From: Rhodanobacter panaciterrae
Lineage (GTDB): Bacteria; Pseudomonadota; Gammaproteobacteria; Xanthomonadales; Rhodanobacteraceae
DNA: 64,000 nucleotides
Assembly: GCF_014651895.1 (NCBI RefSeq)
Contig: NZ_BMXT01000002.1
Coordinates: 434,001-498,000, forward strand
Direction of reading: 5' to 3'
Shown: piece after piece, positions 42,925-49,757 of the stretch
Layout: the number at the start of each line of letters is the position of its first letter
How positions within the stretch are numbered: position 1 is the first letter of the stretch
Translations under genes and position numbers: made by a program
Notes under the pieces: generated by a model
What the model was told of the DNA's origin: nothing
Databases searched by the model: none
The model's input: the letters and a program-made list of their open reading frames with translations, nothing else

Positions 42925-44292
42925 GTGTCCATACCCAGTGCCGTCAAGAGCACCCCGATCCGGGACCGCCAGCAGTTAACTGACTACCTCGCCGCGGGCG
43001 AGAAGCCGCGCGAGGCGTGGCGCATCGGCACCGAACACGAGAAGTTCGGCTTCCTCACCGACACTTTGCGTCCGCCCACCTTCGAAGGTGACCGCGGCAT
43101 CAAGCTGCTGCTGGAAACCATTGCCACCCGCTATGGCTGGGATGTAGCCCGCGAAGGCGAGAATCCGGTAGCCCTGTCGCGCGACAAGGCCTCGATCACG
43201 CTGGAGCCGGCCGGCCAGCTGGAGTTGTCCGGCGCGCCGCTGGAGACGATCCACCAGACCTGTTGCGAGGTGAACTCGCATCTGGAGGAAGTCCGCTCGA
43301 TCGCCGACGGCATGGGCCTCGGCTTTCTCGGCATGGGCTTCCAGCCGAAGTGGCGCCGCGACGAGATGCCGTGGATGCCGAAGGGCCGCTACAAGATCAT
43401 GCGCGAATACATGCCCAAGGTCGGTTCGCTCGGCCTGGACATGATGACGCGCACCTGCACCGTGCAGGTGAACCTGGATTTCTCCAGCGAAGCGGACATG
43501 ATCAAGAAGTTTCGCGTGAGCCTGGCGCTGCAGCCGATCGCCACCGCGTTGTTCGCCGATTCGCCGTTTACCGAAGGACGTCCAAACGGCTATCTGTCGT
43601 ATCGCTCGCACATCTGGACCGATACCGACCCGCACCGAACAGGGATGCTGGACTTCGTGTTCGCCGATGGCTTCGGTTACGAACGCTATGTCGACTACAT
43701 CCTCGACGTGCCGATGTACTTCAGCTTCCAGGACGGCAAGTACATCGATCTCGCCGGGCAGGACTTCAAGAAGTTCATGGCCGGCGAACTGCCGATGCTG
43801 CCCGGCGCCAAGGCGAACATGAAGGACTTCGCCGACCACCTCACCACCGCGTTCCCCGAAGTGCGGCTGAAGCAGTATCTGGAAATGCGCGGCGCCGACG
43901 GCGGCCCGTGGAACCGGCTATGCGCGCTGCCGGCGTTCTGGGTCGGCCTGCTGTATGACGACGAAGCGTTGGATGCCGCGTGGGATCTGGTCAAAGACTT
44001 CAGCCGCGAGGAACGCCATGCACTGCGCGACGGTGTGCCGAAGCATGCGCTGAAGCTGCCGTTCCGCAACGGCACTGTGCGCGACCTCGCCGAGGAAGCG
44101 TTGAAGATCGCCGGCAACGGCCTGCGGCGGCGCGCGCGCCTCAACAGGAACGGCGCCGACGAAAGCATCTTCCTGGAACCGATGATCGAGATCGTGCAGG
44201 CCAACCAGACACCGGCCGAACGCAAGCTGGAACTGTTCCATAGCGCGTGGAACGGCAGCGTCGATCCGGTGTTCCGCGAGTTCGCCTACTGA
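42925..44292 (+). CDS. gshA: Glutamate-cysteine ligase, plant-type (GCS2)
   Basis: A 455-residue enzyme that joins glutamate and cysteine, the first step of glutathione synthesis. It belongs to the plant/alphaproteobacterial branch, not the E. coli branch. Signature blocks include [12 protein letters not shown] (metal/glutamate site), [73 protein letters not shown]. The start is GTG at 42925 inside TTGCCCGTGTCC, the same 12 bases that surround the rho start. It converges with pyrC around a REP-like repeat. Confidence 0.92.
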
Positions 44293-44320
44293 TTCATTGC
44301 GTCTAGACAGACGTTTATCC

Positions 44321-44370
44321 CCTCCCCTGCTTGCAGGGGAGGGCTAGGGCGGGGTCGCTCTTGGTGCCTG
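44321..44370. repeat. REP-like palindrome between gshA and pyrC
   Basis: CCCCTCCCC-tgcttgca-GGGGAGGG followed by a GGGCGGGG tail. It is the same family as the units near 22460 and 37953 and sits between two convergent 3' ends, a usual REP location, where it may act as a transcript-end stabiliser. Confidence 0.75.
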
Positions 44371-44390
44371 CTCTTTTCGATTCCGCTCGA

Positions 44391-45443
44391 TCAGACTGGT
44401 GCCAACTCAGCGATCGACCACGCCACCGACTCGCCCGCCCGCATTGGCTTGCAGGTAGATCCAGCCAGCGGATATTCACTCGGCACCGTCCATGACGTGC
44501 GCTCAAGCGCAATGCGATCCTCGTTCCGCGGCAAACGGTAAAAGTCCGGACCATGGAAGCTGGCAAACGCCTCCAGCCGATCCAGGCTGCCCGCCTGCTC
44601 GAACGCTTCGGCATACAGCTCCAGCGCCGCATGCGCGGTGTACAGCCCCGCGCAGCCGCAGTCAGCTTCCTTCGCCTCGCGCGGATGCGGCGCACTGTCC
44701 GTGCCGAGGAAGAAGTGCGGATCGCCGCTGGTAGCCGCCTGCAGCAGGGCAGCGCGATGCGTCTCGCGCTTGAGGATCGGCGCGCAGTAGTTATGCGGAC
44801 GGATGCCACCCTCGAACAGCGCGTTGCGATTGAGCAGCAGATGATGCGCAGTGATCGTGGCCGCCACATTGGCCGGAGCGCCGCGGACGAACTCGACTGC
44901 ATCACGGGTGGTGATGTGCTCCAGCACCATGCGCAAGGCCGGGAATCTGGCCTGCAGCGGCAGCAGGTGGCGCTCGATGAAAACGCGCTCGCGATCGAAG
45001 ATGTCGATGTCCGGATCGGTGACCTCGCCATGCAGCAGCAAGGGCAGATCGTGCCGCTCCATCGCCTCGATCACGCGATACACACGTGACAGCTCGCGCA
45101 CACCGGATTGTGAATTGGTGGTGGCACCGGCGGGGTAATACTTGACCGCAAACACGCTGTCGCTGTCCTTGGCACGGGCGATCTCCTCGGCTGGGGTGTC
45201 CTCGGTGAGGTACAGCGTCATCAGCGGCTGGAAGCGCATGCCCGTCGGCAGACTCGCCAGAATCCGTCGCCGATAGTCTTCCGCCTGCGCGACCGTCGTC
45301 ACCGGCGGCTTCAGGTTCGGCATCACGATGGCGCGCGCAAAGCGCTGCGCGGTGTGGCCGATCACCGAGGCCAGCGTGTCCCCATCGCGAAGGTGCAGGT
45401 GCCAGTCGTCGGGGCGGGTGATTTCAAGGCGCGTGGGTGTCAT
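44391..45443 (-). CDS. pyrC: Dihydroorotase PyrC
   Basis: A 350-residue class II dihydroorotase that makes dihydroorotate in pyrimidine synthesis. Metal ligands are visible in [10 protein letters not shown], the carboxylated lysine in [17 protein letters not shown], then [17 protein letters not shown] and the catalytic Asp in [11 protein letters not shown]. The ATG at 45443 fits the family start [21 protein letters not shown] closely; the frame is open another 83 codons into the palindromic region but that part is noise. No Shine-Dalgarno is obvious. Confidence 0.96.
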
Positions 45444-45530
45444 GGGGTGGGGACTCGGGTTTGCGATCTGAGATGGCAATGGTATCTCGCGGGCACGGCC
45501 CGTTTGTCCGCTGTGATGGATCGTCATGAA

Positions 45531-46164
45531 AAGCAGAGCTTTCACCCTCCTTCGGAGGGCGAGGTACTTCTCTTTTGCTTGTCCAAAAGAGAAGTACCCA
45601 AGAGAAAACGACACCCCGCTTACGCGCCTTGCGGGCACCCCTGCCCGCAAGGTCCGCGGTCGGGTTGCGGGGTTTGTCGACAGTCCATCCATGGACTGAC
45701 GCCAAACTGGTTCGCATCCCTGCGAACCACCCTGCGGGCTTTTCCTCCACCCGCCCGCCGCTTCAGAGGGGCCCCGGGTAGAGCGACGCGCATCCTGCGC
45801 GTACTTTTCAGAAGAGCCAGATCAAGAGTATGGCAAGAGCAGAGCAACGCTCTGCTCTTGCCATGGCTTTGCTTTTCGGCTCTTCACCGAGTGCGGGCCA
45901 CGATGGCCCGCTGCTCTACCGGGGCCCCTGTGCGGCGGTGAGTCGGGGACGACAGGCCCGTAGGGGAGTCGACAGGGATGTCGACTCCTTTTCGCCAGGA
46001 CAGGAGTCCTGTCGAAAAGCCCGGCCCCGGCTCACGAACTTGCCGGGCAGGATGCCCGGCAAGCGCCAAGCGGGGTGGCCTTTCTCTTTGGTTAGCTTTC
46101 TCTTTGGCCACGCAAAGAGAAAGTAACTCGGGCGCCAAAGGCGCACGAAAGCTCTTGCTTCTGC
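45531..46164. repeat. Giant (~634 bp) palindrome with paired side hairpins
   Basis: The two halves are imperfect reverse complements around 45847. The apex is a perfect 16-bp stem (45830-45845 / 45849-45864) with an AAC loop. Each arm carries six small palindromes at matching positions, with unlike sequences: 45545-45559 and 46132-46144; 45563-45598 (14-bp stem) and 46091-46127; 45627-45652 and 46039-46063; 45681-45698 and 45999-46013; 45708-45729 and 45965-45988; 45786-45802 and 45893-45911. Blocks between them are conserved (GGGGCCCCGG..TAGAGC; CACCCCGCTT; GAGCTTTC). No gene is credible here; open frames are by-products of the symmetry. Confidence 0.88.
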
Positions 46165-46224
46165 AAGGCACCAAGACGCGTCCGGAACTAAACCAACCCC
46201 GATATCCATTTTGCGCTTGAGTGG

Positions 46225-46887
46225 CTATCCACCCACGATCATCAAGCAGGGCTGCCTTCGCAAATCACCCGATCTGTCCAGCAGGAGGCACTGCGCATGC
46301 ACGCCATCGAACAGACCATCACGGGACACGTAGTGAACTGAAAAAACCAGATCACCAGATGTTGTCCAACGGACATCGCCCGGTGCACCGCGAAGGGAAT
46401 GCATTCGTGTCGCAACTACAGCGCCATCGTTGCGTTTCTCTATGCGAAAGATGGCACCCGCGCTTTGCCCCATATGCGCCAATCCAGTAAATACGACCAC
46501 TCCGAAAGGCATCCTCACGATGCCATGCACATTACGCTGTAGTACCGGATGCACCGTACCGCTAGCGTCACGGAAAACCAGCTCTCCACCCCACTCGCCG
46601 CGATCAGCACCGAGCAGTTCACCGTCAAACGCTGCAAAAGTGTACTCAGCGTTCTGGAGGAAGCGGTGGACATGCGTGCCGGTCTCGTCAAGCCCGATCG
46701 TTTCGGCGGGATAACCCAGAATGGACGCAGCACCTGCTGGAGCGGAGGCCGCTATCCCGTGCGTGACTTCGGGCCCACGCACGTGGACCACTACGCGATC
46801 CCAGAGTGCGAACCCCGCGCAAAGGCAGAACGCGGCGAACAGTAGCGCGGCAAACGAGACTTTCAGGTTTTTTTCGTGACCTACCAT
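46225..46887 (-). CDS. Membrane-anchored protein of unknown function
   Basis: A 220-residue protein not recognised by me. It has a short basic start (MVGHEKNLKVS), one N-terminal hydrophobic segment (FAALLFAAFCLCAGFALW) that is an uncleaved anchor or signal, and a periplasmic-looking beta-rich domain with repeated Gly/Asp/Val turns (AAFDGELLGADRGEWGGELVF; GVVVFTGLAHMGQSAGAIFRIE). Two cysteines near the end (QCLLLDR, QPCLM) could pair. It lies 52 bp after hemB on the same strand and next to the giant palindrome. Base use is less GC-biased than its neighbours, hinting at acquired DNA. Confidence 0.6.
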   Translation of the reverse strand: MVGHEKNLKVSFAALLFAAFCLCAGFALWDRVVVHVRGPEVTHGIAASAPAGAASILGYPAETIGLDETGTHVHRFLQNAEYTFAAFDGELLGADRGEWGGELVFRDASGTVHPVLQRNVHGIVRMPFGVVVFTGLAHMGQSAGAIFRIEKRNDGAVVATRMHSLRGAPGDVRWTTSGDLVFSVHYVSRDGLFDGVHAQCLLLDRSGDLRRQPCLMIVGG

Positions 46888-46939
46888 GGCAGCCCCGCAT
46901 CATCGTCTTTGAATACATCCCGCTATCTGAAAAACCGAA

Positions 46940-49757
<2,818 letters not shown>

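Follow-up and report, generated by a model that had tools for sequence, protein, structure and literature searches.

The window, i.e. the whole 64,000-nucleotide stretch of Rhodanobacter panaciterrae DNA that was analyzed (contig NZ_BMXT01000002.1, positions 434,001 to 498,000), contains a large palindrome located between an amidohydrolase gene and a 220-aa ORF (Table 1). The amidohydrolase gene is presumably pyrC, with its start codon likewise assigned by our own reading. Two inverted arms of approximately 300 bp, with shared outer ends at approximately 45529 and 46160, flank a perfect 16-bp apex whose halves (45830-45845 and 45849-45864; 16 nt each) are 100% complementary across a 3-nt spacer.

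Table 1 Features of the palindrome and its flanking genes. Positions are those of the window; hairpins are numbered within each arm from H1, which adjoins the apex, to H6, farthest out.
Feature	Position	Strand	Basis and remarks
Amidohydrolase gene	44391..45440	-	Pfam Amidohydro_1; start approximately 90 bp from the element
Left arm	45529..45829	- (outward from apex)	nhmmer arm match 45537-45804 (-), model 2-264 of 265; outer end motif at 45529
Left H6 (outermost)	45545..45559	-	Located motif
Left H5	45563..45598	-	15-bp perfect stem; outward loop including closing pair GGACAAGC
Left H4	45628..45651	-	Loop GGGG instead of GGGA
Left H3	45681..45698	-	Outward loop CATGGATG
Left H2	45708..45729	-	Outward loop CAGGGATG
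Left H1	45788..45800	-	Outward loop CAGGATG; neighboring GTAG on + strand
Apex, perfect 16-bp inverted repeat, 3-nt loop	45830..45864	.	Inverted-repeat search and motif location
Right arm	45865..46160	+ (outward)	nhmmer arm match 45893-46153 (+), model 2-264 of 265; outer end motif to 46160
Right H1	45893..45911	+	Loop CACGATG, without GGA; neighboring GTAG on - strand
Right H2	45965..45988	+	Loop ACAGGGATGT
Right H3	45996..46011	+	Loop CAGGAG; C.T mismatch under upper stem
Right H4	46039..46063	+	Loop CAGGATG
Right H5	46096..46123	+	Loop GGCCACGC
Right H6	46130..46146	+	Located motif
220-aa ORF	46225..46887	-	No Pfam family at E 0.01

An earlier, sequence-only reading had placed the element at 45531..46164, a few bases from the ends given here, and had described it as a palindrome with an apex hairpin and six position-matched pairs of side hairpins. 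These features were seen directly in the sequence, in the inverted repeats and in the located motifs, the hairpin pair given as its example being H2 of the left and right arms. The left half was also found to resemble the reverse complement of the right, as claimed, with the element matching its own reverse complement at 70% identity (query 88-717). The proposed fishbone around the 16-bp apex was recovered in the minimum-energy RNA fold of the whole element, which consists of an arm-to-arm spine with local side hairpins (-403.6 kcal/mol; z -19.3 against 20 shuffles); the right arm folded alone gave z -7.9 against 200 shuffles. Elsewhere in the window, a weak Rfam match to PrrB/RsmZ at 47860-47969 (+) (22.8 bits, gathering 44, E 0.024) probably arose by chance.

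The 634-base palindrome belongs to a dispersed family of bacterial repeats. The R. panaciterrae genome holds 11 arms in total, comprising the window element, a second pair without cargo (C2:635496-636152, 88% over 627 query bases), two inverted pairs that enclose 1.4 and 2.2 kb, and three single arms. When the right arm was used as query (threshold 1e-5, at most 12 candidates scored per genome), 38 of 59 genomes of the family were matched, representing 19 of 26 genera, and a covariance model of H2-H4 under strict filters matched 42 of 151 genomes of the order in 25 of 64 genera, counts that take in the own genus and family. Outside the family, strong covariance-model matches were found in two families (f2, f4) and weaker ones in three (f3, f8, f12). 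The idea that the element belongs to a repeat family, for which a genome search for copies had been proposed, was thereby borne out. A phage collection gave no arm match, and a plasmid collection gave a single one, in a 4.9 Mb record of Aeromonas caviae, a genus outside the order, where 63 query bases spanning the H5 part were matched; the stretch concerned (NZ_AP026896.1:395885-395944) aligns over 60 bases with the H5 region at 89%. No earlier description of the repeat was recognized in the open-licence PMC literature, as judged mostly from titles and abstract openings, and excerpts of a study of CsrA-related sRNAs in Alcanivorax (PMC9788540) describe nothing comparable.

The predominant arrangement of the arms is an inverted pair facing outward. 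Of neighboring arm matches less than 2.5 kb apart in the loci read, 66 of 92 were arranged minus-then-plus, 15 minus-minus and 11 plus-plus, with no plus-then-minus case. Some loci had been fetched twice, and dropping repeats of one 40-base key, which also loses at least one distinct pair (L113), left 55 minus-plus, 14 minus-minus and 11 plus-plus neighbors of 80. Among the 25 same-orientation neighbors that remained, 19 were at most 70 bp apart, a spacing as would be expected for pieces of one split arm, and six were 117-1318 bp apart. Most pairs are nearly empty and some hold 0.9-3 kb of other genes: the spacing of the 66 minus-plus pairs was at most 260 bp in 55, 385 bp in one and 935-2200 bp in ten (one locus twice). 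In two wider pairs the arms lay 2.9 kb and 5.1 kb apart, the second of them with an IS1595-type transposase ORF inside and a partial right arm. A reading of the arms as integron attC sites was set aside because they face each other in inverted pairs.

Covariation was assessed in an alignment of 43 arms (out of 55, after a length filter) from genomes of several genera. Stem cells were paired in 97.6% of cases compared to 74.9% when shuffled, both-side changes occurred in 19 of 21 pairs with 179 double-change cells, and none of 500 shuffles equaled any of five covariation measures. The side hairpins are thus maintained by paired substitutions in other copies, and a loss of pairing among copies, which the sequence-only reading had named as a sign of chance or simple duplication, was not seen. 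In a larger set of 134 unique arms (from 249 hits), the six loop-nearest pairs were Watson-Crick in 98.3, 98.1, 98.1, 94.9, 99.1 and 85.2% of cases from H1 to H6, against 64, 51, 51, 61, 70 and 58% with shuffled partners, figures that are biased towards pairing by the choice of the best stem per segment and that omit 17, 0, 1, 1, 4 and 3 arms without a scorable hairpin. In H3, a pyrimidine-T mismatch six to seven pairs below the loop was kept in 76 of the 79 arms whose lower stem was clear; the other 43 of the 122 arms scored lacked such a stem under the rule applied.

The further claim that paired changes imply selection on structure fared less well: pairing is indeed kept in other copies, but template switching during replication, as described in excerpts of PMC8794818, can both create and repair perfect stems, and the wobble counts are indecisive. 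Departures from Watson-Crick pairing in the whole stems of H1-H4 (91 arms) comprised 24 G-U and 22 A-C pairs, and near the loop in the 134-arm set the counts were 43 and 41 over all six hairpins, 25 and 12 in H1-H4, and 18 and 29 in H5-H6, giving no consistent RNA signal or preference. The lack of a consistent wobble bias and the capacity of template switching to produce such stems both favor a view of the arms as inert or terminator-like debris, in which tolerated intergenic palindromes would have been perfected by template switching and would serve no function. Four terminator-like sites in 45300-46950, one of them the apex, against a shuffled mean of 1.5 point the same way. We nevertheless regard this explanation as unlikely, with the loops providing a counterargument.

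The outward perfect hairpins of 126 unique arms (459 in total) had GGA in the loop in 307 cases, TCC in three and neither in 149, whereas in 600,408 bases outside the arms in the same loci GGA was found in 26 loops, TCC in 27, both in one and neither in 432. The 307 GGA loops comprised 275 with CA(N)GGA, 22 in H5 and ten others. GGA was most frequent in H2 (128 of 134 arms), H3 (120 of 133) and H4 (112 of 133), followed by H1 (72 of 117) and H5 (25 of 130); H5 and H6 loops mostly lack GGA, those of H6 mostly being G-N-A. Exceptions to the loop rule in the window element are left H4, with GGGG, and right H1, with CGA where GGA is expected. The N positions of the arm loops vary and the A and GGA are mostly constant, CAGGA of H3 being invariant across the 43-arm alignment (A1). 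That GGA is strand-specific while adjacent loop bases vary argues for selection on the loop, and the persistence of these strand-specific loops beyond that of the stems, across genomes of several genera, speaks against functionless debris.

Two kinds of module have been inserted into hairpin loops. Ten insertions of a 47-bp module were found in eight arms, inside the loop of H2 (one), H3 (five) or H4 (four), and nine of them added two same-strand GGA hairpins, the remaining one a single such hairpin. A 68-bp module lies in the H5 loop of eight arms (loci L039, L073, L120, L123, L125, L127, L129 and L131), where in all eight the outward strand reads TCC, with GGA on the opposite strand. The preference for loops may reflect survival, since stem insertions may have been lost and the search covered only matches split along the arm.

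The GGA hairpin loops fit CA(N)GGA(N)G, the published binding motif of CsrA/RsmA, and constitute putative sites. The available passages of PMC7652899 give CAGGA(U/A/C)G for CsrB repeats, RUACARGGAUGU from SELEX and ANGGAN for RsmE, and those of PMC6849547 give a further CsrA/RsmA consensus, CANGGANG. One csrA gene is present in the R. panaciterrae genome. The arms may accordingly be conceived as primarily RNA, with outward transcripts that would capture CsrA/RsmA by means of several CA(N)GGA(N)G loops, either as a dispersed decoy or to regulate enclosed and neighboring genes from the 3'UTR. Besides the agreement with published consensuses, the fixed A and GGA among variable N positions, the same-strand hairpins added by the 47-bp modules and the near-loop excess of G-U over A-C in H1-H4 are in line with this possibility, for which RsmU of Xanthomonas, an RsmA-binding RNA derived from a 3'UTR according to excerpts of PMC7694677, offers a precedent. 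However, the G-U excess is absent in whole stems and over all six hairpins, the H5 and H6 loops mostly depart from GGA, and the 68-bp module carries its GGA on the other strand. The arm stems are also longer than those of CsrA SELEX ligands, which mostly had at most four contiguous pairs (PMC7652899, in part), and RsmU with all four GGA motifs changed did not lose RsmA binding in the portion of that report available (PMC7694677). A simple scan found no sigma-70-like promoter in 45300-46950, and Rfam gave no match at gathering level in 44000-48000, RsmX/Y/Z and CsrB/C included, the nearest at the element being SorX with 21.8 bits against 46.6. Taken as the primary role of the arms, RNA function appears possible but rather doubtful.

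The history of the arms was followed at individual sites, here called pyrC, murB and yjgA from what we take their ORFs to be, the product of pyrC being the one with a domain check (amidohydrolase). At the pyrC site, a match was found in 39 of 45 genomes and 30 orthologous loci were fetched, of which 11 had both arms complete by model match, four had two partial arms (one of these loci being cut by a contig end), one had end pieces and 14 had none. A distant arm could have gone unnoticed here, as the sequence of most loci stops 1.5 kb beyond the query and that of two stops earlier, at the end of a contig. Within the same limits of sequence, the 220-aa ORF was matched in the own locus alone among these 30 loci. 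In one relative (G065) the right arm at this site shares 95% identity compared to 85% for the gene, which speaks against inert debris but does not hold in most other relatives.

Of 21 murB loci, the own one holds 1,407 bp of cargo between its paired arms, seven are empty pairs (in L148 and L158 with an internal deletion of the far arm), two have partial arms and 11 lack a model match, two of the latter with end remnants by eye. At the yjgA site, arms or pieces of arms enclose 0.9-3.0 kb in six of 21 loci; three others have one arm, one has a remnant and 11 have none. A single site can thus be found as an empty pair, as a pair with cargo, or with a deletion remnant or nothing. The remnants at the murB site and at that of L029 resemble joined outer ends and were read as the result of deletion between H6 repeats; mini-palindromes from two outer ends only, seen in L197, L153 and L200, are likewise likely H6-repeat deletion products. 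The many deletion remnants are also in line with the debris view, as are the other palindromes seen by eye at the murB site of armless relatives (L147, L150, L155 and L162). Inverted REP-like repeats (TGTAGGAGCGC...GCGCGATGCTCTTGC) were noticed by eye just beyond some arms at murB loci L026, L145, L148, L149 and L151. The flanks had been proposed as a place to look for target duplications, but no clean duplication or empty site was found at the armless murB, L029 and L027 loci, which instead showed remnants, other repeats or diverged sequence.

The six yjgA stretches, one per species, share a mutual DNA match of 72 bp alone at E 1e-10, and their GC content is 0.50-0.61 compared to 0.65 for the window. 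They encode, among others, a CAP12/Pycsar TIR protein (PDC-S35 in PADLOC, 3.6e-81), a NERD protein, a DUF5131 protein, a LysR regulator, and proteins of the carboxymuconolactone-decarboxylase and metallo-beta-lactamase-fold types. Four of the first ten cargo ORFs scanned, two of which came from the yjgA site, had a Pfam family, namely CAP12 TIR, TIR_2, NERD and zinc ribbon. Defence-type genes are hence present among the cargo, yet not as an established rule. CAP12 homologues were found in seven of 233 family genomes, own included; as a marker of mobility this cargo was discarded, arms being found near the own copy alone among the seven loci (each read approximately 1.5 kb to either side), with three relatives lacking arms.

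Kinship was assessed for 53 complete arms at four sites, compared solely among themselves. The closest relative was an arm from the same site and side in 26 cases (label-shuffled mean 7.5, maximum 20), from another site in another genome in 19, from another site in the same genome in six and from its own site but the opposite side in two. On these counts, arms are inherited in place and apparently also exchanged between sites, and as about half of them are closest at the same site, exchange may be slow.

A dedicated enzyme was sought in the form of Y1_Tnp. The pair could be a MITE-like relic that was mobilized by a Y1 (HUH) tyrosine transposase recognizing hairpins in single strands, by analogy with REP/RAYT or TIRtrons. 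Stenotrophomonas belongs to the same order as R. panaciterrae. TIRYT genes with long TIRs, as well as TIR families of S. maltophilia, are described in excerpts of PMC3733652, and the GTAG beside the H1 hairpin in both window arms recalls the GTAG REPs of that source. Y1_Tnp matches occur in 36 of 45 genomes of the genus, and the pyrimidine-T mismatch kept in H3 looks as though the structure were read. Y1_Tnp is however absent by profile match from the R. panaciterrae genome, leaving RAYT mobilization unsupported there, and from G018 and G084, which carry 17 and 14 arm matches, respectively. Among the arm matches listed, one of 23 Y1 matches in six genomes lay within 5 kb of an arm (G065, 2.7 kb, E 5.9e-6; by eye), and the scanned cargo ORFs gave no Y1_Tnp hit. 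No autonomous parent element for the arms was seen. Movement by a Y1 transposase is hence improbable in our view.

We favor, at a probability of roughly 40%, a reading of the element as a two-armed, non-autonomous palindromic repeat that resides at old intergenic sites and may serve as a frame for exchangeable cargo, with arms that would recombine and loops that would be kept by a ligand. Cargo would come and go through homologous recombination of the arms and without a dedicated transposase, a route suggested by the length and likeness of the arms and by the Y1_Tnp searches, which showed no dedicated enzyme. The stems could be kept perfect largely by template-switch repair of hairpins at replication. 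The GGA loops, on the other hand, would be retained through binding of a ligand to the outward strand in single-stranded form, most likely of CsrA/RsmA to outward transcripts. In the case of enclosed genes, the part bound would be the 3' untranslated region. Against such a frame, most of the pairs read are empty, so that upkeep does not require cargo, and four of the six yjgA cargo cases have fewer than two complete arms: L025 and L170 have both, L165 has one, L174 and L177 have none, and L166 combines an end piece as near arm with a split far arm. The cargo could also represent ordinary gene gain at a tolerant site.

A bolder extension, which we consider unlikely as a whole, is a recombinase-free chromosomal cassette system in which order-wide frames would both swap accessory and defence-type genes via their arms and provide the enclosed genes with CsrA/RsmA-binding 3' ends. 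If true, 3' ends in either direction would be studded with CsrA/RsmA hairpins, and caught genes would therefore come at once under a global post-transcriptional regulator. The favored reading of the element as a frame would itself, if right, provide a testable turnover route for single accessory genes, with CAP12/Pycsar TIR, TIR_2 and NERD as defence-type examples, at fixed sites without an integrase or transposase of their own. It would also offer natural material for telling mutational maintenance of the stems apart from selection acting on the loops, a difficulty of long standing whenever covariation is taken as proof of RNA function.

Mobile insertion cassettes are non-autonomous Tn3-type elements in which short inverted ends surround passenger genes and no transposase is encoded. 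The pairs described here similarly have inverted ends around passenger genes without a transposase, but the ends are approximately 300 bp long and hairpin-rich, and target duplication was not found at the loci named above. With the TIRs of TIRtrons and TIRYT genes, as described in PMC3733652, the arms share the character of long, partly self-complementary inverted repeats that are multicopy and often dimers; they differ in the lack of a Y1 transposase inside (in the cargo ORFs scanned), in having about six hairpins per arm, in their conserved loop and in their varied cargo. Like the GTAG REPs, BIMEs and REPINs covered in the same excerpts (PMC3733652), the copies are extragenic palindromes in inverted pairs with GTAG beside H1 (by eye), and REP-like repeats adjoin several of them, also by eye. 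By the size criterion for GTAG REPs and REPINs, a palindrome of 20-40 bp with a GTAG end, H1 alone fits by eye and the 300-bp arm does not; the arms further depart from GTAG REPs in having stems that are free to vary with loops fixed, and kb-scale cargo in some pairs. Several GGA-loop hairpins on one strand are a feature shared with CsrB/RsmZ-type RNAs and RsmU (PMC7652899 and PMC7694677, both in part), from which the arms differ in being multicopy inverted pairs with long perfect stems and without a gathering-level Rfam match. Compared to the sequence-only reading, the outward GGA rule, the cargo between arms of other copies and the modules within hairpin loops are new. We place the element within the palindromic repeats of the REP, MITE and TIRtron kinds, where it is set apart by its fishbone arms, strand-specific GGA loops and changeable cargo.
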